Virus record (IMG/VR): IMGVR_UViG_3300027898_000004 | Location: 1-41,458 of that record | Reading direction: 5' to 3' (one strand) | DNA: 41,458 nt | Source: a virus | Part shown: positions 3,294 to 41,458 of the stretch, piece after piece | Layout: each line of letters begins with the position of its first letter | How positions within the stretch are numbered: position 1 is the first letter of the stretch | The notes under the pieces: model-generated | Database searches by the model: none | Seen by the model: only the letters and a program-made list of their open reading frames with translations | What the model was told of the DNA's origin: nothing | Program-made: the position numbers and the translations under genes

Positions 3294-5489
3294 ATGCGTT
3301 TAGAAACTGCGCTTAACCTGGCACGCAATGGGTTTTACATTTTTCCCTGCATCGCCAATCAGAAGGAACCGGCCATAAAAAATTGGCCAGCAAAAGCAAC
3401 GAGAGATGCAGCGCAAATCACGAAATGGTTCAGCAAGCACGACTATAATATTGGTATTTCCACATCGCATTACGAAGACAACATGGCGCTTGTCGTGGTT
3501 GACGTGGATAACAAAAATGGTAAAGACGGCGACACTGAAATTTTTCGGCTTGAGATGGAAGGCAAAGAGTTTCCGCCAACGTTTGAGCAGACAACTCCGA
3601 GTGGTGGGCGTCACCTTGTCTATGGCTGGACAAACGCATTAAAGCAGGGCGTTAACGTGCTTGGCAAGGGCTTGGATATTCGCAGCTCAGGCGGGTATAT
3701 CGTCGGCCCCGGCAGCGTATTGGATGGCGCTGAGTACAAATCTAACGTGGACTGGTTTCATCCGCGGTCGCCAACAGTTGCACCGGGCTGGCTTGTCGAT
3801 CGGCTTGGTGCACCGAAAGCGCCATCTGCAGCCAAGGGCGAAGTTCTGCCAGGCATTGACGCTGACCGCGCAGAGCGCCGCGCCATCAAGTATCTTGAAA
3901 CGGCACCGGTTGCCACTGAAGGAGATGGCGGCGACTTGGCAACGTTCAAAGTGGCGTGCAAGCTGAAAGATTTTGGCTGTGACGAATTGCAAGCCGCAGT
4001 TTTGATGATGACGCACTGGAACGATCGGTGCAGCCCACCGTGGGAACCAGATGAAATGGAAACCAAGGTTCACCACGCTTACCGATACGGCCAAGAACCG
4101 CGAGGTGCAGCAGCGCCAGAAGCGCAGTTCCCCCCAATCCCCGAAACAGAACCGTCAAAAAGCGGAACGAAATCCGCCAAACCTGAAACGCTGCACCCCT
4201 TTGCTGAGATGAATAAAGAGTTTGCCTTCGTCAAAAAGGGTGCGTTTGTACTGCAGGAAACCACTGATGACACAGATCAGTTCGTCACGGAACATCTGAA
4301 CATGGCGGAATTCCACGGATGGTTCGCAAACAAGATGTTTGCAGCAGCCAACAGCAAACCGAAGCCCCTCTCTGAATGTTGGCTCGCATGGTCGCAGCGC
4401 CGTGAATACGAAGCTGTGGTATTCAGGCCACAGGAAAATTGTGGGCCGCGCTGGTACAACTTATGGCGCGGGTTCTCCGTCGCGCCAGCAGCCACGGCAG
4501 ATCATCCAGCAGTTGCGGCGTTCTGTGAACATGCGCTGGTTAATGTTTGCGGCGGCGATGAGATGCTGTGTAATTGGTTGCTCGGATACTTTGCGCACAT
4601 GATCCAGAAGCCATGGGAAAAACCATTGGTTGCCCTGGTATTCAAGGGTAAAAAAGGAACCGGTAAAAACGCATTGGTTGAGCGCGTCGGTCAACTATTT
4701 GCAAGCCATTTTCTTGTTGCGGATGATGAGCGTTATCTGCTGTCAAATTTCAATAGCCATCTTGAATCGAACCTGTTCTTTGTGCTGGATGAAGCCAGTT
4801 GGGCGGGCGACAAACGGGCTGAAGGCAAGCTCAAGGGGCTGATCACAGGCCAACACCACAACATCGAACGCAAGGGCAAGGAAGCCTACAAGGTTAAGAA
4901 CCTGACCCGCGTTGCCATCATCGGTAACGAAGATTGGCTGGTCCCTGCGTCGGCAGATGAACGGCGCTTTGCTGTGTTCAACGTGGGCGACGGCCGCCGG
5001 CAGGATAGAAAGTTCTTTGAGGATATGCGCACCGGCATGGAACAGGGTGGTTATGCGCATCTGCTTAAATTCCTGCAGGACTTCGATCTGGGGGCCGTTG
5101 ACGTGAACGACGCACCAAACACAGTCGGCCTGATGGAACAAAAGATCGCGTCACTCGAGCCATTGGAACAGTGGTGGTATGGCTGCCTTGAAGCAGGCCA
5201 AGTGCTGTGCGGTGACTTCGGCAGCGATTGGCCAGAGCGTCTATCTATTAACCGGCTGCACGATGCGCTGGAACGGTACTACAAAAAACGCAATATCAAA
5301 TCACGCGCCCCGGATCGCAATGCATTGAGCCGGAAGCTGAAGGCGATGGCGCAGCATTACATAAAGAAAAAGAACATCAAGCGCGAATTAGGGGATGGCA
5401 CATACGCCTATTTCCATGCAGGCATTGATCAACTGCGCAGCGATTTTGATGCATACATGGGCGACACTTTGGAATGGGATGAACTATGA
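3294..5489 (+). CDS. Prim-Pol primase / D5-like helicase fusion
   Basis: A 731-aa bifunctional replication protein. Residues 1-180 look like an archaeo-eukaryotic primase (Prim-Pol) domain: LARNGFYIFPC, K-P-xx-W near residue 31, catalytic DVD (D70, D72), TPSGGRHLVY (H107) and GGYIVGPGS. The C-terminal half is a DUF5906/D5-like superfamily 3 helicase: Walker A GKKGTGKNA near residue 453, Walker B FFVLDEASWAG near 497, then sensor-like AIIGNEDWLVPASADERRF. It should prime and unwind the phage origin. ATG 3294 lies 3 nt after the previous stop. The end overlaps the next ATG. Confidence 0.93.
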   Translation: MRLETALNLARNGFYIFPCIANQKEPAIKNWPAKATRDAAQITKWFSKHDYNIGISTSHYEDNMALVVVDVDNKNGKDGDTEIFRLEMEGKEFPPTFEQTTPSGGRHLVYGWTNALKQGVNVLGKGLDIRSSGGYIVGPGSVLDGAEYKSNVDWFHPRSPTVAPGWLVDRLGAPKAPSAAKGEVLPGIDADRAERRAIKYLETAPVATEGDGGDLATFKVACKLKDFGCDELQAAVLMMTHWNDRCSPPWEPDEMETKVHHAYRYGQEPRGAAAPEAQFPPIPETEPSKSGTKSAKPETLHPFAEMNKEFAFVKKGAFVLQETTDDTDQFVTEHLNMAEFHGWFANKMFAAANSKPKPLSECWLAWSQRREYEAVVFRPQENCGPRWYNLWRGFSVAPAATADHPAVAAFCEHALVNVCGGDEMLCNWLLGYFAHMIQKPWEKPLVALVFKGKKGTGKNALVERVGQLFASHFLVADDERYLLSNFNSHLESNLFFVLDEASWAGDKRAEGKLKGLITGQHHNIERKGKEAYKVKNLTRVAIIGNEDWLVPASADERRFAVFNVGDGRRQDRKFFEDMRTGMEQGGYAHLLKFLQDFDLGAVDVNDAPNTVGLMEQKIASLEPLEQWWYGCLEAGQVLCGDFGSDWPERLSINRLHDALERYYKKRNIKSRAPDRNALSRKLKAMAQHYIKKKNIKRELGDGTYAYFHAGIDQLRSDFDAYMGDTLEWDEL

Positions 5490-5682: not shown

Positions 5683-6165
5683 ATGCAATCGTATGTCGGA
5701 ACCAAAACCCTCAAAGCAAAGCCGATGACTCGCGGCGAATACAACACATATCGCGGATGGAAGATGCCTGCCAATGAAGATCCGGCGGAAGCAGGCTACC
5801 TGGTCGAATACACAGATGGCGGAAAGCCAAATCACCAAGGCCACGCCGGGTATATTAGCTGGTCGCCAAAAGACGTATTTGAATATACGTATCGGCCAAC
5901 AACCGGCGCAACGTTCGGGTTGGCCGTTGGCGCGATGAAAGAGGGTTCATTCGCCACACGGGCGGGCTGGAATGGAAAGTCACAGTTCGTTTATTACGTT
6001 GAATCGTGGGAATATCCGCTTGGCGTCATCCATCGGGAATGCTTCGAGTTGAAAACGGTTGACGGTTCCGTTGTGCCCTGGGCCCCATCAGTATCAGACG
6101 CGCTGGCAGAAGATTGGCAGCTTATCGTTCCGGTCGAATCAGCCGAGCCCTACCAGTTTCAATAG
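5683..6165 (+). CDS. Two-domain protein with Tad2-like (DUF2829) C-terminal domain
   Basis: A 160-aa protein preceded by AAGGAGAAGTGAA and ATG 5683. Residues 1-72 form a domain I recall from many phage proteins (KPMTRGEYNxYRGW, GYLVEYxDGGKPNHxGHxGYISWSPKxVFExxYRP). Residues 77-150 match DUF2829: FGLAVGAMKEG, TRAGWNGK (92-99), FELKTVDGSVVPWAPSVSDALAEDWQ. DUF2829 includes Tad2, which sequesters the cyclic ADP-ribose signal of the Thoeris anti-phage system. The anti-Thoeris role is inferred from family membership. It is the last gene of the replication operon, a usual place for accessory anti-defence genes. Confidence 0.8.
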   Translation: MQSYVGTKTLKAKPMTRGEYNTYRGWKMPANEDPAEAGYLVEYTDGGKPNHQGHAGYISWSPKDVFEYTYRPTTGATFGLAVGAMKEGSFATRAGWNGKSQFVYYVESWEYPLGVIHRECFELKTVDGSVVPWAPSVSDALAEDWQLIVPVESAEPYQFQ

Positions 6166-6318
6166 CCAGTAGACCGGCCATATCGCGGACAGGAATACGT
6201 CAAGCGGTATGGCCAACACCCAATTCCATGCGGTATAAACGAAGCCGGCAAAGAACAGTTGGTACACCAGTGTTGCCAAGCCGCCCGCAAGCCACGCACC
6301 TTCCGCCGGTTTATTCAT
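6139..6318 (-). CDS. Small membrane protein
   Basis: A 59-aa very hydrophobic protein (MNKPAEGAWLAGGLATLVYQ...) with two likely membrane spans around residues 9-28 and 31-57. ATG 6318 has AAGGGG six bases upstream on the minus strand. An earlier GTG at 6321 is less well placed. It is convergent with, and overlaps by 27 bp, the end of the Tad2-like gene. No family is recognised. Superinfection exclusion or another membrane role is possible but unsupported. It could be a chance ORF, although the ribosome site and composition argue for a gene. Confidence 0.55.
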   Translation of the reverse strand: MNKPAEGAWLAGGLATLVYQLFFAGFVYTAWNWVLAIPLDVFLSAIWPVYWLLKLVGLG

Positions 6319-6378: not shown

Positions 6379-6397
6379 TGTTACACTCACCGTTACA
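6379..6397. promoter_or_regulatory. Degenerate 19-bp operator-like site upstream of integrase
   Basis: TGTTACACTCACCGTTACA matches 13 of the 16 fixed positions of TGTNACGATNATCGTNACA. Both outer half-sites are intact; the mismatches are in the core. It may allow the phage repressor or Cro to influence int. This is weaker than the four main sites. Confidence 0.35.
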
Positions 6398-12994: not shown

Positions 12995-13013
12995 TTATGC
13001 GATTATCGCAATA
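12995..13013. promoter_or_regulatory. Weak operator-like palindrome before the tail spike gene
   Basis: TTATGCGATTATCGCAATA lies 16-34 bp upstream of the spike start. Its core GCGATNATCGC is a perfect palindrome and equals the core of the early operators, but only 11 of 16 fixed positions match. It could be a fortuitous operator, a late-gene control site, or an mRNA hairpin in the spike leader. Confidence 0.35.
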
Positions 13014-13034
13014 TATCGTGTAATTCGCAACACA

Positions 13035-31585: not shown

Positions 31586-31604
31586 TGTAACGATTATCGT
31601 AACA
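31586..31604. promoter_or_regulatory. 19-bp operator, ardC-operon promoter (site 1, best match)
   Basis: TGTAACGATTATCGTAACA matches all 16 fixed positions of TGTNACGATNATCGTNACA. It ends 6 bp before a perfect -10. A protein bound here would block RNA polymerase at the -35 region. Confidence 0.85.
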
Positions 31605-31610
31605 TGGTTC

Positions 31611-31616
31611 TATAAT
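31611..31616 (+). promoter_or_regulatory. -10 box of ardC-operon promoter
   Basis: TATAAT is a perfect consensus -10. The -35 region at 17-bp spacing (TAACGA) is poor and lies inside the operator. Confidence 0.65.
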
Positions 31617-31669
31617 CCAACCCTCGACAGCCAATAACGGCCCGATAAATCACTCAAGGGAAAATCAAA

Positions 31670-31774
31670 ATGAACTCAATTTATACATCAAGCCGCTCAG
31701 TAATTACCGACGATGCAAAGCGCCTGGAATTAATCAAACAGCGGATTGCATCGCTTTTGGCTCAGTCGAAATAA
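31670..31774 (+). CDS. Very small leader protein of ardC operon
   Basis: A 34-aa ORF (MNSIYTSSRSVITDDAKRL...) beginning after CAAGGGAAAATCAAA. The same CACTC(A/G)AGGGAAAATCA-type leader precedes ardC (31823-31838), so the ribosome site appears duplicated. The product is charged and helical. It is not recognised and may be a real small protein or a leader peptide. Confidence 0.5.
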   Translation: MNSIYTSSRSVITDDAKRLELIKQRIASLLAQSK

Positions 31775-31838
31775 TCACGTCTATTGCATTGCTTTAATCA
31801 CATCACATCAATTTAATCTAATCACTCGAGGGAAAATC

Positions 31839-32684
31839 ATGGCTGATTTATATCAGGAAGTAACAAACAAAATCATTGAACAGATGGAAAACTGCAAAGG
31901 CAACTGGGTTATGCCGTGGAAAACATCCGGATCGATGCCACACAATGCCATCACTAAAAAACCATATCGCGGCATCAATCTGTTTTTGCTTTTCGCACCG
32001 GGCGAAGGCAACGGATGGCTGACATTCAAACAAGTTCAGGAAGTGGGCGCAAATATCCGCAAAGGTGAGCACGGCCAGAAAATTGTTTTCTTTTCTCAAT
32101 TTGCCATCACTGACAAAGACACCGGAAAAGAAAAAGCTATCCCCCTGCTGAAGCAATACACAGTTTTTCACACTTCGCAAATCGACAATCTGCCGGAAAA
32201 ATACCTTGATCAGCCATCAAAACCATTGACTGAATTTCAACGCATTGAACATGCGGATGCTTTAATCAATCAGGCCCGTGTTTTTTATGGTTCAGATAAA
32301 GCATTTTACAGACCAGCAACAGATTCTATTCATCTGCCCAGCGTGAATCAGTTCAACACCATTGACGATTTTTATTCAACCGCTTTGCATGAGTTAACCC
32401 ATTGGACCGGATCGGAAAAACGATGCAACCGCGAATTTGGAAAACGTTTTGGTGATTCAGCCTATGCCAGGGAAGAACTGGTGGCAGAGATGGGAAGCGC
32501 TTTTTTGATGGCATCAATTGGTTTCAATGGCAAAAATCAACATGCTGAATATTTGGCTAGTTGGATCAGCGTATTAAAAGCGGACAAGAAAGCCATTTTT
32601 GTGGCAGCCAGCGCAGCACAAAAAGCAACGGATTTTATTTTGACACCGGCAACTGTCGAATCTGAAGAACTGATCGCAGCGTGA
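31839..32684 (+). CDS. ArdC-like antirestriction protein
   Basis: A 281-aa protein with two domains. The N-terminal ssDNA-binding domain (DUF1738) shows GNWVMPWKTSG, PHNAITKKPYRGINLFLL, WLTFKQVQEVGANIRKGEHGQKIVFF. The C-terminal zincin-like domain has H184-E-L-T-H188-W-T-G and a downstream glutamate in AREELVAEMGSAFL. ArdC-type proteins protect incoming DNA from restriction. ATG 31839 follows GAGGGAAAATC. The gene is first or second in a short repressor-controlled operon, suggesting expression soon after entry. Confidence 0.9.
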   Translation: MADLYQEVTNKIIEQMENCKGNWVMPWKTSGSMPHNAITKKPYRGINLFLLFAPGEGNGWLTFKQVQEVGANIRKGEHGQKIVFFSQFAITDKDTGKEKAIPLLKQYTVFHTSQIDNLPEKYLDQPSKPLTEFQRIEHADALINQARVFYGSDKAFYRPATDSIHLPSVNQFNTIDDFYSTALHELTHWTGSEKRCNREFGKRFGDSAYAREELVAEMGSAFLMASIGFNGKNQHAEYLASWISVLKADKKAIFVAASAAQKATDFILTPATVESEELIAA

Positions 32685-32695
32685 AATAGCCAGGT

Positions 32696-32722
32696 AAAGC
32701 GGATTGTTGATCAGTCCGCTTT
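32696..32722 (+). terminator. Hairpin after ardC
   Basis: An 8-bp perfect stem, AAAGCGGA / TCCGCTTT, with an 11-nt loop. It is followed by GCCGGGTAATTTT, so the T tract is displaced. It may attenuate read-through to the next genes or protect the ardC mRNA end. Confidence 0.5.
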
Positions 32723-32761
32723 GCCGGGTAATTTTGCCCGATTTGATCCAAAGGTGAAAAC

Positions 32762-33076
32762 ATGAAAACGCATATCCGCACTATTTCAGATTCAATTCTG
32801 TTGAAAGCCAGTTACGAAAATGGTGTAAAAGTCCCGGCATTCATCAAGCCAGGGGAAACAGCCAAAAAAGCTATTCAACGCTTAATGGCCAATCGTCAAC
32901 GGGAAATTAAAACATGCCAGCGCAACTTTCCACGCTGGCAACCGAAGATGTCTATTGCGGATTATGTCGCACAGTTTGAATCAATGAATGCCTTACATCG
33001 ATCCAGCACAGTCCATTTAGAAGATGTGTTTATGACGATGCCTGAAGGCGATGAATGCATCGTCGAATCAATTTAA
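32762..33076 (+). CDS. Hypothetical protein
   Basis: A 104-aa protein (MKTHIRTISDSILLKASYENGVKVPAFIKPGETAKKAIQRLMANRQREIKTCQRNFPRWQPKMSIADYVAQFESMN...). AAAGGTGAAAAC precedes the ATG. It is basic in the middle and acidic at the C-terminus. It is not recognised. Being in the ardC operon it may be an accessory or anti-defence factor, which is inference. Confidence 0.7.
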   Translation: MKTHIRTISDSILLKASYENGVKVPAFIKPGETAKKAIQRLMANRQREIKTCQRNFPRWQPKMSIADYVAQFESMNALHRSSTVHLEDVFMTMPEGDECIVESI

Positions 33077-33082
33077 CCATAG

Positions 33083-33112
33083 TGATGCGATTTTAATATC
33101 ACATCATTTTTT
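33083..33112 (+). terminator. Rho-independent terminator-like hairpin
   Basis: TGATG-C-GAT-TTTAAT-ATC-A-CATCA is an imperfect 8-pair stem directly followed by TTTTTT. It lies 7 bp after the 104-aa gene. Confidence 0.6.
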
Positions 33113-33133
33113 CAACATCACAGGGGAAATACC

Positions 33134-33319
33134 ATGCAGATCGAAATAGAAGAAACCCTATTCAAAGACCTGATAGACTGGTCACTTGAATTTGCAGCGG
33201 ATTTAGAACAGGACATTTTGACCGATGGATCGGACTATTGGACGGCTGAAGAAAAGGTCGCACTGTTAAACCGCATCGCTAAGTTGAAAGAATTTGCCGA
33301 ACGCTCTGGTACGATCTGA
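33134..33319 (+). CDS. Small acidic hypothetical protein
   Basis: A 61-aa acidic protein (MQIEIEETLFKDLIDWSLEFAADLEQDILTDGSDYWTAEEKVALLNRIAKLKEFAERSGTI). CAGGGGAAATACC precedes the ATG. It is strongly negatively charged and helical. Small acidic phage proteins are often DNA mimics or inhibitors, but nothing specific is recognised. Confidence 0.7.
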   Translation: MQIEIEETLFKDLIDWSLEFAADLEQDILTDGSDYWTAEEKVALLNRIAKLKEFAERSGTI

Positions 33320-33342
33320 TCAGCCAGGGCGAACCGAGTCAA

Positions 33343-33365
33343 GCCGGGACTGCGCCCGGCATTTT
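33343..33365 (+). terminator. GC-rich hairpin after the 61-aa gene
   Basis: Stem GCCGGG / CCCGGC with loop ACTGCG, then ATTTTC. It would end the ardC operon transcript before the AT-rich block. Confidence 0.55.
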
Positions 33366-33486
33366 CGCATCCAGCGCCAAACCGGCTCACCAGTAATCGC
33401 TAGGCGCGGAGTTCAATCGCCTTTCACCCCGAATCAGTTTTCCTCCCGATCCGATTCAATCACAAAACCACCCCGCGCCAGATCAC

Positions 33487-33867
33487 ATTCTAAACATTCT
33501 ATGTTTCTTTTAATTAATAGAATACGTAACCCTTTGATTTTATTACCCTATTCTATATATTCTATATATTCTATTTATTTAAGTATTAGTAGTTAATATA
33601 TAGGGGTATAGGTTGCCGTACAGCCCTTGGCGGGTCAGTAATATCCCACACCACAAAATCTCCCGGCGGATTTGGAAAAAAAACGTAGAATTTGTAGAAT
33701 ATTAGAATATCACTTATAAATCAGTGACTTACAGCACAAAAAACATTCTAAAATATTCTAACATTCTAAGAATATGCGGTTTCGTCATTCCATAAAACGC
33801 AAAAAAGCCAAAAATCTCTCAACTTTTGGCTCTAATTTGACGCTTAATTTTATTCTAAAACATTCTA
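33487..33867. repeat. Cluster of 14 ATTCTA/TAGAAT hexamers
   Basis: ATTCTA starts at 33487, 33496, 33550, 33559, 33568, 33745, 33755, 33763, 33852 and 33862. TAGAAT starts at 33518, 33686, 33695 and 33703. Spacing is often 8-10 bp, and 33550-33576 is a tandem ATTCTATAT x3. Less than one copy is expected by chance in this length even allowing for A/T richness. Confidence 0.85.
33801..33831 (-). terminator. Rho-independent terminator of the repressor gene
   Basis: On the minus strand AGCCAAAA, a 10-nt loop, TTTTGGCT, then TTTTT. An 8-bp perfect stem with T run, 37 bp after the repressor stop. Confidence 0.8.
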
Positions 33868-34464
33868 TTATTGCTTCATCCAGATCACTGGCGATGCGGA
33901 AATTAACCCAACATTCGGGATAACTGGCGTATTCCAACCGCCTAAATTGTACTTTCCGACTTCATATCCACGGCTGACGGGCAAGATGTATGTCGGACCA
34001 TCTGGCTGTAATTTCACAACACATAATCGCCCGAGCGCTTCTAAGCTGATGCCATCGATCGGCCGGTAATAGATCAGCCAGCCATCGAACGGCTGCCCAG
34101 GCGCTTGCGTCCTGATCGCAACAACATCATCAAACCCACCAGGCGGCGATTCGCACACACCGGGGCCAGCAGGACGTTCAAACGATACTTCCTTGTCTGC
34201 GTTCATCCATCCAATGATAGGCGTCGAGGCCCCGCCTGTTGCCGCACTCACGTTGACGCCGGCATGACGTAGCACTTCATCGACAGTAACCCGCAGTAAC
34301 GATGCAATCTCGCCTGCTTCTGTGACACTCATTTTTCTTAAACCACGTAACATTAAACTCACCGCCGCTGGATCGAGATCCATTAATTTAGCCAGGCCAC
34401 GCTTTGATAGGCGTTGTTCTTCTAGCTTTTGGTTAAACCAAGTAACGTTAAAATCCGTAATCAT
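33868..34464 (-). CDS. XRE-family phage repressor (CI-like)
   Basis: A 198-aa protein. Residues about 15-68 form an HTH_3 domain (NQKLEEQRLSKRGLAKLMDLDPAAVSLMLRGLRKMSVTEAGEIASLL). The C-terminal half (about 105-190) resembles the S24/LexA-like fold by pattern (GWLIYYRP..DGIS...GRLCVVKLQPDGPTYILPVSRGYEVGKYNL), but no G-D-S-M serine nucleophile is visible, so it may serve only for dimerisation. AGAGGAGAGCGAC precedes ATG 34464. It is divergent from the Cro-like gene, as expected for a lysogeny repressor. Confidence 0.88.
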   Translation of the reverse strand: MITDFNVTWFNQKLEEQRLSKRGLAKLMDLDPAAVSLMLRGLRKMSVTEAGEIASLLRVTVDEVLRHAGVNVSAATGGASTPIIGWMNADKEVSFERPAGPGVCESPPGGFDDVVAIRTQAPGQPFDGWLIYYRPIDGISLEALGRLCVVKLQPDGPTYILPVSRGYEVGKYNLGGWNTPVIPNVGLISASPVIWMKQ

Positions 34465-34486
34465 GTCGCTCTCCTCTAAACACTAC

Positions 34487-34503
34487 GTTTACAACTTGTA
34501 AAC
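34487..34503. promoter_or_regulatory. 17-bp palindrome in repressor leader
   Basis: GTTTACAACTTGTAAAC is a perfect odd-centred palindrome just downstream of the repressor -10 on the minus strand. Its sequence differs from the 19-bp operators, so it may bind another regulator or form an mRNA hairpin around the repressor transcript start. Confidence 0.55.
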
Positions 34504-34505
34504 AT

Positions 34506-34534
34506 ATTGTAACGATTACCGTAACATCATACAA
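34506..34534 (-). promoter_or_regulatory. Repressor promoter (PRM-like)
   Basis: On the minus strand -35 TTGTAT (34529-34534), 17-bp spacer, -10 TACAAT (34506-34511). It is overlapped by operator site 2, so the repressor or Cro would control it. Confidence 0.7.
34508..34526. promoter_or_regulatory. 19-bp operator at the repressor promoter (site 2)
   Basis: TGTAACGATTACCGTAACA matches 15 of 16 fixed positions. It lies between -35 and -10 of the repressor promoter. Confidence 0.8.
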
Positions 34535-34606
34535 GAAAAGAATTGTTAAATCTACGTGACATGTCGTTAATCTCACCATTTATTTCACTCGGCAAATTAA
34601 AAAGGC

Positions 34607-34635
34607 TTTGCATATTGTAGCGATTATCGTATCAT
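34607..34635 (+). promoter_or_regulatory. Cro-operon promoter (PR-like)
   Basis: -35 TTTGCA (34607-34612), 17-bp spacer, -10 TATCAT (34630-34635); TTGCAT with a 16-bp spacer is equivalent. It is overlapped by operator site 3 and drives the genes from 34677 onwards. Confidence 0.7.
34616..34634. promoter_or_regulatory. 19-bp operator at the Cro promoter (site 3)
   Basis: TGTAGCGATTATCGTATCA matches 14 of 16 fixed positions and covers the spacer and -10 of the Cro-side promoter. It lies 90 bp from site 2 across the divergent promoter region. Confidence 0.8.
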
Positions 34636-34676
34636 GAGTCGTAAATCGCACTATAACGCTTCTAGGGGGCAACGAA

Positions 34677-34997
34677 ATGGCAGGGCAACGTGGTATCGGC
34701 AAATATGGACGCCCGACGTACAACCAGGCGCAGAAAGTCATTCGGAAATTTGGTGGCGAAGCGAAGTTGGCTGAAATTGTTGGTTGCTCCCGAATCAGCG
34801 CGTACCGCTGGCAATATCAACGGCCCTATGGCAGCGACGGGCTGATCCCAACAGCGATGGTGGAAAAGATCAACAGCGTTGCCCGCACCCATGGCGTGTT
34901 ACTGACCCCGATGGATTGGCTGCCTGAGCGTATCGACTATGAACCGGTTGCCGCTGACGTATTACACATTCCAGACATTACAAGGACAGCGTCATGA
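34677..34997 (+). CDS. Cro-like HTH regulator
   Basis: A 106-aa protein. Residues 17-75 (QAQKVIRKFGGEAKLAEIVGCSRISAYRWQYQRPYGSDGLIPTAMVEKINSVARTHGV) form a Cro/CI-type HTH, with LTPMDWLPER after it. ATG 34677 follows AGGGGGCAACGAA. First gene of the rightward operon and divergent from the repressor, so it is the likely opponent in the lysis-lysogeny decision. Confidence 0.85.
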   Translation: MAGQRGIGKYGRPTYNQAQKVIRKFGGEAKLAEIVGCSRISAYRWQYQRPYGSDGLIPTAMVEKINSVARTHGVLLTPMDWLPERIDYEPVAADVLHIPDITRTAS

Positions 34998-35302
34998 CTG
35001 ATGAGGAAAGAGCATTAAATGCCTGCCGCCGGTATGTTGAAACACAAACCGCTATTAAGACTGCCACACGAAACATCTCAGGATCGCTGGCGTTGTGCAC
35101 GCTGCATCACGTTTACACCGATACCGGCAAGACACATCTGAGCAATTTGTACGCAAGCCGGAGTGCCGGATACGGTGATTCAAATATTGAATTGTGCCCC
35201 CATTGCCAAAAAGCGGATGCGCTGATTCAGGAACGCAAGAAACTGCGATACACGCTTGGCGGCATCAAACGTACCTTTACAACCCTGGGCAGCCGAAAAT
35301 GA
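34994..35302 (+). CDS. Hypothetical protein with possible zinc site
   Basis: A 102-aa protein (MTDEERALNACRRYVETQTAIKTATRNISGSLALCTLHHVYTDTGKTHLSNLYASRSAGYGDSNIELCPHCQKADALIQERKKLRYTLGGIKRT...). CPHC plus C35 and HH could bind zinc. Its ATG overlaps the Cro-like stop (ATGA) and its stop overlaps the resolvase ATG. No family is recognised. Confidence 0.75.
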   Translation: MTDEERALNACRRYVETQTAIKTATRNISGSLALCTLHHVYTDTGKTHLSNLYASRSAGYGDSNIELCPHCQKADALIQERKKLRYTLGGIKRTFTTLGSRK

Positions 35303-35796
35303 CAACTTACATTATGGGGATTGATCCCGGTATCAGTGGTGCGATTGCGCTGTATGATCCTCAGACTCGGGAACTGATCGTGCACGATATCCCAACCGTT
35401 GCCGCATCGCGTGGCGCTGGTGGCGCGAAAGATATTGACGGGTACGCGCTTGGAATGTTGATCGATTCTTTGAAACCACACATCAACCGCTGCATTATTG
35501 AAAAGGTGGGGGGTATCGGAAAGCAGTCTGCAGCGAAGTCCTTTCAATTCGGGCTGAACACAGGGGTTATCCACGGCATCATCTATTCAAACCTGATTCC
35601 CTTGTCGTTTGTTACACCGCAAGTCTGGAAAGCGTATTTCAATTTAAAGCGCAAACCTGCGATGTCAGACTCAGCATACAAATCTCTTTCACGCAGTAAA
35701 GCATCCGCGCTGTTGTCACAGCACGCGCACTATTGGGCGATGGCAAAGCACGATGGCAGGGCAGAAGCAGCACTCATTGCGCTATATGGCGCTTAA
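35299..35796 (+). CDS. RuvC-like Holliday junction resolvase
   Basis: A 165-aa RNase H-fold nuclease. Acidic residues at expected places: D9 in MGIDPGISGA, E68 in CIIEKVGG, and D152 with E156 in KHDGRAEAALIALYG. It also has QVWKAYFNL between. It probably cleaves branched replication or recombination intermediates before packaging. ATG 35299 overlaps the preceding stop; the upstream ORF extension to 35194 is disregarded. Confidence 0.88.
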   Translation: MTTYIMGIDPGISGAIALYDPQTRELIVHDIPTVAASRGAGGAKDIDGYALGMLIDSLKPHINRCIIEKVGGIGKQSAAKSFQFGLNTGVIHGIIYSNLIPLSFVTPQVWKAYFNLKRKPAMSDSAYKSLSRSKASALLSQHAHYWAMAKHDGRAEAALIALYGA

Positions 35797-35814
35797 ACAA
35801 CCAGGAGAATAGTT

Positions 35815-35892
35815 ATGGGTTCCCTTTTATTACTTGGCCTGATCTTGATCATCATCGCCGTTCTCGCTTCACTCGGAGATGACGGCTTATGA
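35815..35892 (+). CDS. 25-residue membrane peptide
   Basis: MGSLLLLGLILIIIAVLASL plus DDGL. AGGAG lies at 35802-35806, and the stop overlaps the next ATG (ATGA at 35889-35892), so coupling supports it being translated. It is a single membrane span. Function unknown. Confidence 0.6.
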   Translation: MGSLLLLGLILIIIAVLASLGDDGL

Positions 35893-36167
35893 TGGATCAA
35901 CGACGGCCACCAGCGCCATTTGCCCCGATCCTTATATCAACGAATCTCGGTGTGGGTGGCGACGCACAAAATAAATATTTAAATTTGGGATGGTCAAAGC
36001 GGGAGCAGTTCGCCTGCCATGCGCCAGTCGATATTCCTGAGTGGTTCCAAGTCAAACCTAACGATGATTCTGTCCTTGCGATGGGATCAGAGATTGACCG
36101 GCAGCGCTATTTTATGTGGCGCTATTACTTTGCAGACATGATGCTCGAATATGGAGAATTGCAATGA
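35889..36167 (+). CDS. Hypothetical protein
   Basis: A 92-aa protein (MMDQRRPPAPFAPILISTNLGVGGDAQNKYLNLGWSKREQFACHAPVDIPEWFQVKPNDDSVLAMGSEIDRQRYFMWRYYFADMMLEYGELQ). It overlaps its neighbours by 4 bp on both sides. It is not recognised. The aromatic-rich C-terminus suggests a folded domain. Confidence 0.7.
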   Translation: MMDQRRPPAPFAPILISTNLGVGGDAQNKYLNLGWSKREQFACHAPVDIPEWFQVKPNDDSVLAMGSEIDRQRYFMWRYYFADMMLEYGELQ

Positions 36168-36787
36168 GCGAGAACCCACCTAAAATACCGCAGCACGTCA
36201 TAGAAGAAATGCGGCGCAGCGGCGGATGGCCATCGGCGGCGCTGAACAAGCCTGATCACAAACCGTTCGGCCTTGAAAGCATGGACGATGTAACCCCGTT
36301 TCGTCGCCGTATCTCTGATCCGCCAGCACCATTGGCAGAACACGTTGGGTGGCCACAATCCCCTTCGGCGGCGTCATTAGGGCGGCCCCGATCGCCATTT
36401 GAACCGCTTGGCCCAACACCAGCGTTGTCGCCTGAGCAGATCAGAGGGATGCTGAAGAACCACAATCCGTCCGGGAAACAGTCCGGCGGCCTGAAATACG
36501 ACGCAGAAAAACCCCCGATGGATCTGATCGATCGCCGTGCGATGGAACAGCTTGCAAACGTGTTGGCGTTCGGTGCGAAGAAATACGCTGCGCACAACTG
36601 GCGCTCAGGCATCCAGTATTCCAGACTGACCGCTGCAGCCCTGCGCCACATTCATGCGTTCAATGATGGCGAAACGTTTGACCCTGAGTCCGGCCTGCCG
36701 CATATCGCGCACGCTATGTGCTGCCTGATGTTCATTCTCGGGCAGCCAGGTACTGAAATGGACGACCGCCATCGCTCAGACGAATAA
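36164..36787 (+). CDS. DUF5664 dATP/dGTP diphosphohydrolase-like protein
   Basis: A 207-aa protein. Residues 108-193 carry the DUF5664 pattern: GGLKYDAEKPPMDLIDRRAMEQLANVLAFGAKKYAAHNWRSGIQYSRLTAAALRHIHAFNDGETFDPESGLPHIAHAMCCLMFILG, with E130-like, H161, D168 and D173/E175 as likely metal-site residues. Related phage proteins are annotated as dATP/dGTP diphosphohydrolases. Residues 1-107 are Pro-rich and probably disordered, longer than usual. No PurZ-like gene is present, so a 2-aminoadenine genome is not supported. It overlaps both neighbours. Confidence 0.78.
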   Translation: MSENPPKIPQHVIEEMRRSGGWPSAALNKPDHKPFGLESMDDVTPFRRRISDPPAPLAEHVGWPQSPSAASLGRPRSPFEPLGPTPALSPEQIRGMLKNHNPSGKQSGGLKYDAEKPPMDLIDRRAMEQLANVLAFGAKKYAAHNWRSGIQYSRLTAAALRHIHAFNDGETFDPESGLPHIAHAMCCLMFILGQPGTEMDDRHRSDE

Positions 36788-38163
36788 TGGATCTTGAAAC
36801 CCCATTTCCGTATCAGCTGACCGGCGCAGAGTTCTTATCACTGAAGCCGCACGCGCTTTTAGCTGACGAGATGGGGCTCGGCAAGTCGTGCCAGGGCGTG
36901 GTGGCCGCGGATTATGTTGGCGCAAAGTTGATCCTGATCGTCTGCCCCGCCAATGCCCGTATCAACTGGTCCCGCGAGTTTGAGCGTTTCAGTCCGTTTG
37001 ATCGGCATTGCAGCGTAGTGGTTGGCGACGCAGCAAAGATACCGACATTCGGGGTTGTCATCGTCAGTTACGATCTGTTCAGTTCAAAGAAGGCCAGAAA
37101 GCAGATCAGGGCAATCCAGTGGGATGTCGTCATATTGGATGAGTGTCATTATCTAAAGAATCGGCAGTCTGGTCGGACAAAGGCGGTGTATGGCGCGGAT
37201 ATTGCCGGTGGCGTCAAAGCAAAGTATCTGTGGCGGCTCAGTGGAACACCAGCGCCAAACGATGTATCCGAGATTTGGACACATCTGCGCCACGCTGGCG
37301 TTACAGAGAAATCGTATTGGGAGTTTGTTGCCGCGTATTGTAGCGGGTTCGACACAGACTACGGATTCAAGATCACCGGCACGAAAAACCCCGCCGCCAT
37401 GAAAGGTGGGCTCAGTGATTTTATGTTGCGAAGAAAAAAGGATGAAGTGATGAAAGACCTGCCCCCTATTACATTTCAAGATGTCACGATTGAGCGCAGC
37501 CCTGTCGAACTGGACCCTTATTTTTATGAGCACATTCGCGGATGTGGTGGGGACGTTGACGCTTTCCTGCAACAATTGAAAGACGCGGATTCGACGTTGA
37601 AAGCCGGTATCGACAATATCAGAAAACACCCAAAGGCCAATTTGGCTGATGTGTGCAAACTGCTGGAAAGCATGGAAACCAGCCAGATCACGTTGCGCCG
37701 GTATTTAGGCATGGCGAAAGTGCCTGTTTTCTGCGACATCATCAAAGAAGAACTGGACGAAAATCCCGGCATGAAGATCGTCATTTTCGCCATCCATAAA
37801 GACGTGATCGAGAATATCCGGATCGCCTTTTCAAAGTACGGCGCAGTAACGCTGTACGGTGGCACCCCGACTGAGAAACGCCAGGCGAATATTGATAAGT
37901 TCCAGAACAATCCGAAATGCCGGGTGTTTATCGGTAATGTCAAAGCGGCCGGCACAGCGATTACATTGACGGCATCGTGCGAAGTCGCGTTCATCGAAGC
38001 CAGTTGGGTGCCAGGCGATAACGCACAAGCCGCGATGCGCTGCCACAGGATCGGTCAAGAAAAACCCGTGCGCGTCCGGTTCTTCGCGTGTGCCGGTAGT
38101 GTTGATGAGCAGGTCATGTATGTCTTGCGTCGTAAATCGCACGAATTAGCAAAAATATTTTAA
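36787..38163 (+). CDS. SNF2-like DEAD/DEAH-box helicase
   Basis: A 458-aa superfamily 2 ATPase of the SWI2/SNF2 type. Motif I GLGKS (30-34), motif Ia VCPANARINWSREFERF, motif II DECH (118-121), motif III LSGTPAPN, motif V-like GTAITLTASCEVAFIEASW, motif VI AAMRCHRIGQ. It probably remodels DNA-protein complexes or aids recombination or replication. Its ATG shares the A of the preceding TAA. It ends the rightward operon. Confidence 0.92.
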   Translation: MDLETPFPYQLTGAEFLSLKPHALLADEMGLGKSCQGVVAADYVGAKLILIVCPANARINWSREFERFSPFDRHCSVVVGDAAKIPTFGVVIVSYDLFSSKKARKQIRAIQWDVVILDECHYLKNRQSGRTKAVYGADIAGGVKAKYLWRLSGTPAPNDVSEIWTHLRHAGVTEKSYWEFVAAYCSGFDTDYGFKITGTKNPAAMKGGLSDFMLRRKKDEVMKDLPPITFQDVTIERSPVELDPYFYEHIRGCGGDVDAFLQQLKDADSTLKAGIDNIRKHPKANLADVCKLLESMETSQITLRRYLGMAKVPVFCDIIKEELDENPGMKIVIFAIHKDVIENIRIAFSKYGAVTLYGGTPTEKRQANIDKFQNNPKCRVFIGNVKAAGTAITLTASCEVAFIEASWVPGDNAQAAMRCHRIGQEKPVRVRFFACAGSVDEQVMYVLRRKSHELAKIF

Positions 38164-38169
38164 ATAAAT

Positions 38170-38188
38170 TGTTGCGATAATCGTGACA
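38170..38188. promoter_or_regulatory. 19-bp operator at replication-operon promoter (site 4)
   Basis: TGTTGCGATAATCGTGACA matches 15 of 16 fixed positions. It lies immediately after the helicase stop and ends 6 bp before the -10, the same spacing as site 1. Confidence 0.8.
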
Positions 38189-38200
38189 CGGTGTAATAAT
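38172..38200 (+). promoter_or_regulatory. Replication-operon promoter
   Basis: -35 TTGCGA (38172-38177), 17-bp spacer, -10 AATAAT (38195-38200). The -35 lies inside operator site 4, so a bound repressor should silence replication genes in the prophage. Confidence 0.7.
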
Positions 38201-38253: not shown

Positions 38254-38709
38254 ATGCACATCGCCTTACATGTCACGAATGCCCATCAAGCCGAACTCTT
38301 ATCAACACTTCTTTCAAGCTGGTATCACGAAAACGCCAAGCCGGTAGTGGCGGGTAACACCGAGCAGTCTGCGCCACTTTCCCTTTCCAATGGTGGTGAG
38401 CAGACCGAGAGCAAAACGTCGGAAGCGCCAAGTGTCAGCAACACCGATACGGCTTCCGACGCTCCCGTCAAACAGAAGCGAGCCAAGAAAGAAAAAGAAG
38501 TCGAATCACCGGTCGCGCCAGAACCGGCAAAAGAATCTGGCGCAAAAACACCGACTATTGATGACGTTCGTGCTGCGCTGCAGGGCTTTACTGAACGGCA
38601 TGATATGGCAAAAGGCATTGCAAAGCTGAAGGAATTTGGTGCGCAGCGTATCAGCGAATTGGCAGAAGGTTCGTATGTCAACTTCATCGCGGAGTGCACA
38701 AATGAGTGA
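38254..38709 (+). CDS. Hypothetical protein, disordered middle
   Basis: A 151-aa protein. N-terminal ~28 residues MHIALHVTNAHQAELLSTLLSSWYHENA, then a long Ser/Glu/Lys-rich disordered linker (about 35-98), then a small helical domain DVRAALQGFTERHDMAKGIAKLKEFGAQRISELAEGSYVNFI. The C-terminal motif recurs in phage proteins placed before DUF2800 nucleases, as I recall. The function is unknown. First gene of the replication operon. Confidence 0.72.
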   Translation: MHIALHVTNAHQAELLSTLLSSWYHENAKPVVAGNTEQSAPLSLSNGGEQTESKTSEAPSVSNTDTASDAPVKQKRAKKEKEVESPVAPEPAKESGAKTPTIDDVRAALQGFTERHDMAKGIAKLKEFGAQRISELAEGSYVNFIAECTNE

Positions 38710-39814
38710 CCACGCGAAACTTGGCCCCTCAAGTGCTGACCGTTGGATGCAATGCCCTGGCAGTGTGGTTTTGTCAGAAGGTATGCCACAGCGTACCAGT
38801 GAATTTGCTGCAGAAGGCACGGCAGCGCATGAACTGGCTGAAAAGCTGTTGAATGGTGGCAAACGTGGCGATGATATGGAAATGGCAGATCACGTTGTTA
38901 CATACGTTGACCATGTGCTTTATCTCGCCGGTACTGATGCGAAAAACACATTGCATATCGAAGTTCGCGTCAAAGTCAGCGACGATATTTGGGGAACAGC
39001 GGATGCGATTGTCTGGAACCCAGAAACCCGAGTGTTGTACGTCCGCGATTTGAAATATGGCGCTGGTGTACCGGTTGAAGTTAAGGGCAATACGCAGTTG
39101 AAGATTTATGCCTTGGCCGCGTTGCTGACGATGGCGTATCCGGCGCGGAAAGTGAATGTCGGTATTGTCCAACCGCGCTGCCCGCATCCAGACGGTTACA
39201 TCCGAGAAGTCGAATTCGATGTGATTGACCTGATCGACTTCAACGCTGAATTAGCGGATGCAGTCAAGCGGGTGAAAGCCGCCCAGGCTGCAACGCATTC
39301 AACTCTGCAGCAGGTTTATTTGAACCCGACTGAAAAGGGTTGCCGGTGGTGTTTGGCCGCCCCGAAATGTCCCGCGATTGCGAACAAAGCGCAGCAAGTG
39401 GCGAAAGTCGTGTTTGCACCTGGCTTGCCATACGACCCTGCTGCGTTGGCGGAAACGCTGGACTTCCTTCCAATCCTTGAAGGCTGGATCACCAACACCC
39501 GCGAGTTCGCCTATTCAGAAGCGGAGAAGGGCCATGCCATTCCGAATTGGAAGCTGGTGCCGAAACAGGCGCGTCGTAAATGGCGCAATGAAGCAGATGC
39601 AGCAAAAGTGCTTTTGGAATTTTTTGATAAAGAAGCGCTGTTTGAAACGGTGCAAAAAATGTTGAGTCCTGCAGAAGCTGAAAAATTGCTTGCGAAGGAT
39701 CAGCGCTCCGTCATCGGCAGTTTAGTGATCAAAGAAAGTTCTGGCCACACGTTGGTGCACGAATCAGATAAACGCGACGCAATCCGCGTCGATGCAAAAG
39801 CGGCTTTCGCATAG
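38702..39814 (+). CDS. DUF2800 RecB-like (Cas4-like) nuclease
   Basis: A 370-aa protein starting MSDHAKLGPSSADRWMQCPGS. PD-(D/E)XK-type motifs: H43 (GTAAHELAE), GTADAI (D101), D116-L-K118 and Q132...Y136 (QLKIYA). Cysteines CRWCLAAPKC near residues 217-226, with the earlier C18, could hold an iron-sulfur cluster as in Cas4/AddB. It is probably a recombination or replication exonuclease paired with the DUF2815 protein. ATG 38702 overlaps the preceding stop by 8 bp. Confidence 0.88.
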   Translation: MSDHAKLGPSSADRWMQCPGSVVLSEGMPQRTSEFAAEGTAAHELAEKLLNGGKRGDDMEMADHVVTYVDHVLYLAGTDAKNTLHIEVRVKVSDDIWGTADAIVWNPETRVLYVRDLKYGAGVPVEVKGNTQLKIYALAALLTMAYPARKVNVGIVQPRCPHPDGYIREVEFDVIDLIDFNAELADAVKRVKAAQAATHSTLQQVYLNPTEKGCRWCLAAPKCPAIANKAQQVAKVVFAPGLPYDPAALAETLDFLPILEGWITNTREFAYSEAEKGHAIPNWKLVPKQARRKWRNEADAAKVLLEFFDKEALFETVQKMLSPAEAEKLLAKDQRSVIGSLVIKESSGHTLVHESDKRDAIRVDAKAAFA

Positions 39815-39822
39815 GGGGATGT

Positions 39823-40047
39823 GTGTTGCCTTTGTTTGTAAGTCGGAAAGAGCTTGCTGCGTTTGGGATCGCGGTCCATGAAAACACAATTCGTCGTTGG
39901 CTTTGTGAAAAACGTATGCCGCCGGTTATTAAATTAAGCAGCCGAAAATACGTTTGGAAAACCGCTGAGATTGTGTCTCATTTAGGTTTGTCCGAGGCTG
40001 AAGCTGTCGCGGCGTGGAAACAATTTAAAGCAGCGTCCGTTAAATAG
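39823..40047 (+). CDS. Small HTH DNA-binding protein
   Basis: A 74-aa protein (MLPLFVSRKELAAFGIAVHENTIRRWLCEKRMPPVIKLSSRKYVWKTAEIVSHLGLSEAEAVAAWKQFKAASVK). The pattern R.elA...gi..n.tIrRW...k.mPp..kls.r...W is AlpA/excisionase-like. The start is GTG 39823 after GGGGGAT. Regulatory or recombination-accessory role. Confidence 0.75.
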   Translation: MLPLFVSRKELAAFGIAVHENTIRRWLCEKRMPPVIKLSSRKYVWKTAEIVSHLGLSEAEAVAAWKQFKAASVK

Positions 40048-40056
40048 GAGAAGAAC

Positions 40057-40320
40057 ATGGACCGTGAAACAAAGCAGCTGGTGGCGGCATCTTTCGCAGT
40101 TAGTGCGTTGTGTCGTTTGCTCGTCCTTGCTGAGGATGACGAACAGCTGCGCTTAACTCTGACAACGGCCATTATCCATATAACTGACGCACTCGGCTTT
40201 ACTCCGAAGGCATCCCCGATATGCGTAGTTTGCAATGCCGAAATGTTGGGTAAAAGACGCGGCGCAAAAACGTGCTCGGATAACTGCCGTAAATTAAGCA
40301 ACTCGAACAAAAAGAATTGA
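40057..40320 (+). CDS. Small protein with C-terminal zinc finger
   Basis: An 87-aa protein. The N-terminal half is helical (KQLVAASFAVSALCRLLVLAEDDEQLRLTLTTAIIHITDAL). The C-terminus has C56-x2-C59 and C73-x3-C77 (CVVCNAEMLGKRRGAKTCSDNCRK), a short treble-clef-like finger. AGGAGAAGAAC precedes the ATG. Probably nucleic-acid binding; not further recognised. Confidence 0.72.
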   Translation: MDRETKQLVAASFAVSALCRLLVLAEDDEQLRLTLTTAIIHITDALGFTPKASPICVVCNAEMLGKRRGAKTCSDNCRKLSNSNKKN

Positions 40321-40331
40321 AAAGCCGCCCC

Positions 40332-40353
40332 CGGTCGGATACCGGTTTTATTC
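40332..40353 (+). terminator. Weak terminator-like hairpin
   Basis: CCGGT-CGGAT-ACCGG then TTTTATT, between the zinc-finger gene and the ssDNA-binding gene. The stem is only 5 bp, so attenuation rather than full termination is likely. Confidence 0.4.
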
Positions 40354-40374
40354 ACTATTTTTAAAAGGTCCATT

Positions 40375-40938
40375 ATGTCTGACAATATGCTCACTCCTGA
40401 ATTTCGCGGTTGTTTTGTAACGCTGTTTAAACCCCGCGCATCGAAAAACGACGACGGCACAACCGGTGCGCCGAAGTATTCCATCAAAGCGGCTTTTCCC
40501 CCAGGTACTGATCTGTCCGCGATGAAACGCGCTGCAGAAGAAGCTGCCAAAGAAAAATGGGCGGACAAGATGCCGAAAGCGTTGCGCAGCCCTTTTCGTA
40601 CCAATGAAGAACTCGACAATCCGCTCGAAGGGATTGGTGACGATTGGACTGTTATGACGTTCTCCGCAGCCGAAGATCGCCGCCCAGGGCTTGTTGACGC
40701 AAAGCTGAATGACATCATCAATCAGGAAGACGTGTACAGCGGCGCATGGTTCCGCGCTCAGGTTCGCCCCTACGCTTATGACAACAAAGGCAATAAGGGT
40801 GTCGCGTTCGGATTGCAGAATGTGCAAAAAATCCGCGACGACGAGCCATTTGGCGCAGCCAGGGTGAAGGCAAGCCAAGCGTTCAGTGCAATTGAAGGCG
40901 CTGGTGAAAGTAAATCCGTCAGCAGCATCTTCGGATAA
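40375..40938 (+). CDS. DUF2815 ssDNA-binding protein
   Basis: A 187-aa protein. FRGCFVTLFKPRAS, GAPKYSIKAAFPPGTD, AAKEKWADKMP, LRSPFRTNEE, VYSGAWFRAQVRPYAYDNKGNKGVAFGLQNVQKIRDDEPFG match the DUF2815 pattern, an OB-fold family related to T7 gp2.5 ssDNA-binding proteins. It would coat single strands for the polymerase. AAAAGGTCCATT precedes the ATG. Neighbouring DUF2800 and polymerase genes are its usual partners. Confidence 0.88.
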   Translation: MSDNMLTPEFRGCFVTLFKPRASKNDDGTTGAPKYSIKAAFPPGTDLSAMKRAAEEAAKEKWADKMPKALRSPFRTNEELDNPLEGIGDDWTVMTFSAAEDRRPGLVDAKLNDIINQEDVYSGAWFRAQVRPYAYDNKGNKGVAFGLQNVQKIRDDEPFGAARVKASQAFSAIEGAGESKSVSSIFG

Positions 40939-41002: not shown

Positions 41003-41458
41003 ATGCTTAAAGTCTATAAAGGTTTCAATAAAGATTGGACGTGCCGTGGATACCAATTCAAAGTTGGCGAAACGTTTGTTCATGAAGGCGACGCGAAAGT
41101 GTGCAATGCGGGCTTTCATGCGTGTGAATATCCCCTCGACATTTTTAATTACTATCCACCAACCGGTCAAATCGCTGAGTGCGAATTAGATGGCGTTGAC
41201 CCGAAAACAGACGGCGACACAAAACGCGCCGGCAACAATATTAATATCAAACTGTCGTTGACTATTCCAATGTTGATCGCGGCAGCCATCGAATACACAA
41301 CATCCCGTTGTAATCCTGCTGACGGCCAGCACGCCACAGGTTACAAATCTGCGAGCAGCGCCACAGGTAACTACTCTGCGAGCAGCGCCACAGGTAACTA
41401 CTCTGCGAGCAGCGCCACAGGTAACTACTCTGCGAGCAGCGCCACAGGTTACAAATCT
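41003..41458 (+). CDS. DUF7666-like repeat protein, N-terminal part (continues at base 1)
   Basis: MLKVYKGFNKDWTCRGYQFKVGETFVHEGDAKVCNAGFHACEYPLDIFNYYPPTGQIAECELDG... is the DUF7666-type N-terminal domain (about residues 1-110), then nine-residue repeats begin at 41339. ATG 41003 follows GGAGAATAAA. The frame is open to the end of the window and joins in frame to 1-612. After trimming the 39-bp overlap the full protein is about 342 aa with about 18 repeats. Function unknown. It lies between the ssDNA-binding protein and the polymerase. Confidence 0.85.
   Translation, partial: MLKVYKGFNKDWTCRGYQFKVGETFVHEGDAKVCNAGFHACEYPLDIFNYYPPTGQIAECELDGVDPKTDGDTKRAGNNINIKLSLTIPMLIAAAIEYTTSRCNPADGQHATGYKSASSATGNYSASSATGNYSASSATGNYSASSATGYKS
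41339..41458 (+). repeat. Tandem 27-bp coding repeats, right end
   Basis: Four full units (Y N N N, starting 41339, 41366, 41393, 41420) and 12 bp of a fifth (Y). They are the same units as at 1-405. The last 39 bp equal bases 1-39. Confidence 0.97.

Follow-up and report, generated by a model that had tools for sequence, protein, structure and literature searches.

The dyads and the genes they border

The window, by which we mean the whole stretch of DNA analysed, is an entire IMG/VR record (IMGVR_UViG_3300027898_000004; 41458 bases). It is a temperate podophage-like genome with genes for an integrase, DNA polymerase, primase, portal-type adaptor, tail and tail-fibre proteins, and its early region carries four copies of a 19-base-pair (bp) palindrome, TGTNACGATNATCGTNACA, considered here as the candidate operator of a phage immunity switch. 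The copies begin at 31586, 34508, 34616 and 38170, with 0, 1, 2 and 1 mismatches, and match 16, 15, 14 and 15 of the 16 fixed positions, exactly as in an original prediction made from the sequence alone. Each is a dyad of 9+1+9 bp, matching its own reverse complement at 16, 14, 12 and 14 of 19 positions, respectively (the centre cannot match).

All four dyads are intergenic. Candidate operator 1 (31586..31604, plus strand) lies between terS, on the minus strand, and the left (ardC) operon, on the plus strand. Operators 2 (34508..34526, minus strand, at the putative repressor promoter) and 3 (34616..34634, plus strand, before the Cro-like operon) occupy the border between two divergent genes, one encoding a CI-like helix-turn-helix (HTH) repressor of 198 amino acids (33868..34464, minus strand) and the other a Cro-like protein of 106 amino acids (34677..34997, plus strand), the Cro assignment being by fold only. 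Operator 4 (38170..38188, plus strand) follows the gene for an SNF2-type helicase of 458 amino acids (36787..38163, plus strand; domain and PHROG searches) and precedes the replication operon on the same strand, whose first genes (38254..40938) encode a 151-amino-acid protein, a DUF2800 nuclease and a Gp2.5-like single-strand-binding protein (SSB). As had been predicted, the operators are scattered rather than grouped as in lambda: they stand singly at four borders, spread over about 6.6 kb, and not in sets at two early promoters.

With fewer than three mismatches, TGTNACGATNATCGTNACA occurs nowhere else in the window. The whole-genome scan that the original prediction had proposed gave five matches at up to three mismatches, against a mean of 0.18 and a largest count of two in 100 dinucleotide shuffles, none of which reached five.

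The dyads recur at homologous borders in diverged relatives

Because the repressor sequence alone, used as a query, found no viral contig, the Cro-like protein was used instead, and retrieved three loci as a single sequence, 17 as a two-sequence profile and 22 as a twelve-sequence profile. One scan of genome contigs yielded one relative, a 41861-base scaffold of Ensifer adhaerens ST2. Contigs that are long enough have a common gene order, namely terS (minus strand), accessory genes, repressor (minus), Cro (plus), SNF2 helicase, a protein like that of 151 amino acids, DUF2800 and SSB, some of which went undetected in some contigs. A megablast search of the operator region against phages gave no match.

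A matrix trained solely on the window's four sites, and so out of sample for the relatives, was scanned over 18 relative contigs; in 13 its top hit fell at one of the three homologous borders, and in G014, G004, G017, L016 and L018 it lay elsewhere. Against 2000 segments of matching length drawn at random from the same locus, the best border score reached p ≤ 0.05 in 39 of 40 borders of 16 relatives: all 11 left-operon borders (operator 1), 15 of 16 repressor-Cro borders (operators 2 and 3, taking the best site of the border) and all 13 borders after snf2 (operator 4). The border limits follow homologous genes and were set by hand after the sequences had been read, and borders absent from truncated contigs were not counted. 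Left out of the border, spacing and permutation tests were L006, L008, L017, L018, L019, L022, L032/L033 and L034, as copies of tested loci or as carriers of the same operators as these, and L027, as too distant. L015 has the same operators as L020; both were kept in the border and spacing tests, L015 was dropped from the permutation test and L020 from the divergence test. One relative, G015 (L024), gave a weak match only.

As a control for base composition, the matrix columns were permuted with their symmetry kept. Of 38 borders, 36 had p ≤ 0.05 with the true matrix and between 0 and 12 with each of 40 permuted ones, so that AT-rich composition adds a little to the signal but cannot explain the result.

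The sites also diverge in step within each phage, as expected if one protein reads them. With the window excluded, operators from the same genome were more alike than operators from different genomes (13.76 versus 12.74 matching positions, standard deviation 0.20; p = 0.0005, the minimum attainable with 2000 permutations), and tightening the score cut or removing L024 gave p = 0.0015. Sites scoring below 12 were dropped from this test (below 15 in the stricter variant), and the spacing analysis below kept all scores.

One half-site fits a predicted −35 element

Downstream of operator 1, a −10 element TATAAT (31611..31616, plus strand) begins 6 bp past the dyad, and positions 3–8 of the operator (TAACGA, 31588–31593) would form the corresponding −35, 17 bp upstream. 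Operator 4 has AATAAT at the same distance (38195..38200, plus strand), with TTGCGA at its positions 3–8 (38172–38177), so the identical 6-bp spacing claimed for these two sites is borne out, and it recurs in relatives. The further claim that every site sits on a recognisable promoter held for sites 1 and 4, was weakly borne out at the Cro site (GTAAAT, 34641–34646, plus strand, at +6) and found no support at the repressor site.

Refinement of the motif on 59 sites gave TGTTGCGATNATCGCAACA, with 16.2 bits and an uninformative centre. Across 43 left, Cro and replication sites, the −10 score had its maximum 6 bp past the operator (0.43 versus a mean of −4.2, standard deviation 1.5). The left class is the clearest (3.57 versus −4.3, standard deviation 2.3), and in the replication class the score at +6 was −0.46 versus −4.1 (standard deviation 1.7). 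A −10 at +6 places operator positions 3–8 as the −35 with 17-bp spacing, and a protein bound to an operator half that is also the −35 should exclude RNA polymerase.

The putative regulators

For the 198-amino-acid protein, originally predicted to be a repressor, profile and fold searches both point to a CI-like one. It carries an HTH_3 domain, and a profile built from it and five relatives matched the lambda repressor (3bdn) with E = 1.8e-8 over parts of both domains. The best match of its structural model was a lambda-186 hybrid repressor (E = 3e-4, TM-score 0.32), and a second look with VIA-align gave coverage mostly of the HTH half. The residues aligned to the Ser/Lys self-cleavage pair of lambda repressor are not conserved, in a C-terminal alignment that is itself weak, which makes SOS-induced self-cleavage of this protein doubtful. 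Among relatives, repressor identity to that of the window falls to 30%. Seven of them (L013, L017–L021, L023) retain the HTH half and the operators, with a short, different tail in place of the C-terminal half.

The prediction of a Cro-like protein likewise agrees with the predicted fold, at weak E-values: the model has a predicted local distance difference test score (pLDDT) of 79.9, and its best fold matches are the Cro proteins of Xfaso 1, N15 and P22 (E = 0.04–0.25). In the 11 relatives aligned, the protein is 43–63% identical to that of the window. NCBIfam gave no match above cut-off for the four proteins searched.

The left operon and its variable cargo

The left operon encodes an ArdC-like, putatively antirestrictive protein (281 amino acids; 31839..32684, plus strand; ArdcN 3.9e-32, MPTase-PolyVal 6e-45, phrog_7245), and two further genes (104 and 61 amino acids; 32762..33319, plus strand) have no PHROG. 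Antirestriction had been predicted to fall under the switch. An operator does precede the ardC operon here, but ArdC was found in none of 20 other virus records, many of which are fragments; the two ArdC copies of the Ensifer genome lie outside its phage scaffold, on other contigs. Cargo at this place in relatives comprises GP88 (L038), DUF7227 (L034), phrog_11344 proteins (L007, L023) and unknowns, and Pfam assigned no family to eight of ten such proteins. Since ArdC is particular to this phage, the conserved part is the putatively operator-controlled slot before an accessory operon whose cargo varies.

Other sites and a second palindrome

The regulon had been called genome-wide. The four strong early sites fit that description in part, and beyond the early region the window offers only a possible site before the tail-fibre gene, where two weak dyads abut (12995..13032, minus strand). 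The homologous place had p ≤ 0.05 in six of eight relatives with the window matrix and in seven of eight with the family matrix, and is a possible operator on this evidence. In the relatives mostly only the half TTGCGATAAT is conserved there, which could be an extended −10.

The fifth match in the window, at 6379 (three mismatches), was rejected as an operator before the integrase gene, as 1 of 10 relatives was positive there with either matrix. A small open reading frame nearby (6139–6318, minus strand), between the replication genes and the integrase gene on the opposite strand, is hydrophobic by eye and has its own likely ribosome-binding site. Also rejected was a site that precedes the major capsid gene by about 200 bp (25815 in the window; also in G024, G015, G002 and G021). 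Read by eye, its contexts belong to a small gene and encode a conserved peptide resembling IAEIATxFYN, and the site had looked non-coding because the gene caller ignored genes below 90 amino acids. The enrichment of other sites in non-coding DNA (23 of 44) was not used, as it is subject to the same bias.

In three relatives, operator-like sites lie past terS toward terL (L025:5742–5760, G002:10714–10732 and G005:4734–4752, with scores of 21.5, 19.2 and 13.3); these are possibly a coding coincidence. In another, an operator-like dyad, TGTTGTGATCATCTCAACA, lies between ssb and polA (G004:11216–11234), with a terminator-like hairpin and a run of T directly after it.

One relative carries a second, shorter palindrome, TGTTACNGTAACA, as four exact copies 32–34 bp apart directly behind the repressor gene (L023:4836–4947), and again at its repressor promoter (5405–5417; the same phage is in L051). 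Single copies lie at the repressor promoter in L021, L035 and G021 (L049), and copies with one mismatch in L013 and L016. Several relatives with a poor repressor-class site have TGTTACNGTAACA there. Its possible roles are those of a separate operator array, of iterons or of a partition site.

The two ends of the record (1–120 and 41339–41458) lie in one common tandem repeat, built of 27-base units (GGTAACTACTCTGCGAGCAGCGCCACA and a variant), which makes the join, and any gene inside it, unreadable.

Dyads in cultured Burkholderia phages

At E ≤ 1e-5 the repressor has homologues in 20 phage records, in all 20 at one place covering at least 80%. To the repressors of Bcep22-like phages (Lessievirus: BcepMigl, DC1, BcepIL02) it is 29.9–33.0% identical over 88–89%. 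The family matrix pointed to dyads in part of BcepMigl, and the most symmetric 19-mer of its repressor border is TGGTNCGANNNTCGNACCA. This pattern, written after hits had been seen in the same genome, has 13 matches in BcepMigl at up to three mismatches, versus 1, 1, 1, 4 and 3 in five shuffles; 11 of the 13 are intergenic, versus 5.4% of positions (p = 7e-13). The intergenic dyads (L064 2214, 3962, 7394, 15256, 18437, 18456, 19375, 30258, 42971 and 46788; L065:11576) include sites before terS, the major capsid gene, a DarB-like antirestriction gene and the holin gene. A fairer test is provided by DC1 and BcepIL02, in which 7 of 7 matches (in 21.8 kb) and 5 of 7 (in 20.7 kb) are intergenic. 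As the three phages are close relatives, their results are not independent. No Cro homologue was found in any of the three by tblastn.

In phage PEp14 a dyad gave four matches (shuffles 0), only one of which is intergenic, so that a scattered operator there is suggestive at most. The nearest named phage record, MW202898.1, carries two related 19-bp dyads with another half-site (TGTTGATAATTTATCAACA and TGTTTATATATTATCAACT; L063:4053–4071 and 4178–4196), which adjoin what is by eye an apparent Cro-like gene. A search of the open literature gave no description of these operators or of Burkholderia phage repressor sites, and in the available part of the JC1 paper the terms 'operator' and 'promoter' are absent (PMC9144972).

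A probable dispersed immunity switch and its alternatives

From the computed sites, their conserved places, their joint divergence and their −10 spacing we infer which protein binds, and with it dimerisation, repression, autoregulation and Cro antagonism. The dyad is probably the operator of the phage's own immunity switch, comprising a CI-like repressor, dispersed operators and a Cro-like opponent. The 198-amino-acid repressor would bind the dyad, probably as a dimer that places one recognition helix on each half-site. The 5′ half-site would double as the −35 at the promoters of the left and replication operons, where bound repressor would therefore exclude RNA polymerase. Each early operon would thus have one operator: the left accessory operon (ArdC here), the Cro-like and early genes, and the replication and recombination genes. 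An additional operator at the repressor gene, in some relatives only, would serve autoregulation, and the Cro-like protein would probably compete for the same sites in lytic growth. The central idea of the original prediction, one switch with scattered operators, is thus favoured by the same borders in diverged relatives, the joint divergence and the tendency to a fixed −10 distance.

Several points weigh against this reading. The repressor model is of low confidence (pLDDT 64.9), and none of the Cro fold matches has an E-value below 0.001. L016 has no good match to the window matrix and fails at the repressor-Cro border (p = 0.083). The permuted matrices reached their threshold in up to 12 of 38 borders versus about two expected, which assigns part of the signal to base composition. 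The repressor-class site, unlike its nearly always present left, Cro and replication counterparts, scores below 12 in 8 of 16 genomes, and this class has no −10 peak at +6; in the Cro class the +6 offset ranks second, behind an offset inside the motif.

The strongest alternative, which we consider unlikely, is that the main reader of the sites is the Cro-like protein or a different regulator, the CI-like repressor being confined to its own promoter or working elsewhere. The Cro-like protein is indeed the best conserved regulator, at 43–63% identity compared with as little as 30% for the repressor, whose C-terminal half is replaced in several relatives and whose promoter in some of them carries the other palindrome, TGTTACNGTAACA. 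However, it is the DNA-binding N-terminal half of the repressor that is kept, and three phages with related repressors and no detectable Cro homologue still have a 19-bp dyad of the same layout; the two proteins may also simply share sites.

Far less probable is a promoter element, reflecting the preference of a phage-chosen sigma factor or RNA polymerase, in place of a repressor operator. Half of the motif does coincide with the −35 at a fixed distance from the −10, and before tail-fibre genes mostly only TTGCGATAAT is conserved, but the symmetry of the dyad extends across the spacer, in which a promoter has no need of it, the motif also occurs at the repressor promoter without the spacing, and it diverges jointly within each phage. 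Chance or base composition as the source of the sites is ruled out by the shuffles and by the permuted matrices, the latter showing a small composition effect.

If the dyads are indeed immunity operators, the operator of an immunity switch has been predicted from sequence alone, and with it a promoter-reading rule (the half-site serving as −35, the −10 lying at +6) for a group of uncultured phages. The prediction extends to cultured Burkholderia phages and is hence directly testable. It would also be worthwhile to screen the cargo of the putatively repressor-controlled slot (ArdC in this phage, and in relatives GP88, DUF7227 and unknowns) for counter-defence.

Comparison with known systems

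The Lessievirus phages resemble the window phage in having related repressors over most of the protein and a scattered 19-bp dyad of the same layout. They differ in their half-site (TGGTNCG), in having more sites, in BcepMigl also before the terS, major capsid and holin genes, in the lack of a Cro homologue by tblastn, in a genome of about 62 kb and in other replication genes. It is a tentative and rather speculative thought that the repressor lineage from the uncultured podophages to Lessievirus represents a distinct immunity design, with a lambda-type CI (and Cro in the podophages), single symmetric operators, dispersed and with the −35 as their half-site, and an operator-controlled slot between terS and the repressor that collects fast-changing counter-defence genes. 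If so, the operator could be used to find new counter-defence genes.

The lambda-type switch (lambda, P22, N15) shares with the window phage divergent CI-like and Cro-like genes and symmetric operators at their border. The operators of lambda are grouped as triplets, whereas the window phage has one per promoter; nor is the lambda cleavage pair conserved in the window repressor alignments, weak as these are in the C-terminal half.

Phage P1 has 22 sites for its C1 repressor, dispersed over the genome (PMC8546580), and is like the window phage in placing single operators for one repressor in this way; its operators are asymmetric and of 17 bp, in contrast to 19-bp dyads and a Cro-like protein opposite the repressor. 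In mycobacteriophage L5 and cluster A, repressor sites, comprising operators and stoperators, lie in promoters and in short spaces between genes throughout the genome (PMC9283540). In this dispersal they also resemble the window phage, but the L5 sites, of which there are more than 20, are an asymmetric 13-mer bound by a monomer (PMC9283540), compared with four strong symmetric sites here. Dispersed operators are thus already known from P1 and L5. The window phage has the layout of these two and the proteins and symmetric sites of lambda, and lacks a defining feature of each; it is this combination of dispersed operators with lambda-type proteins and symmetric sites that is new.

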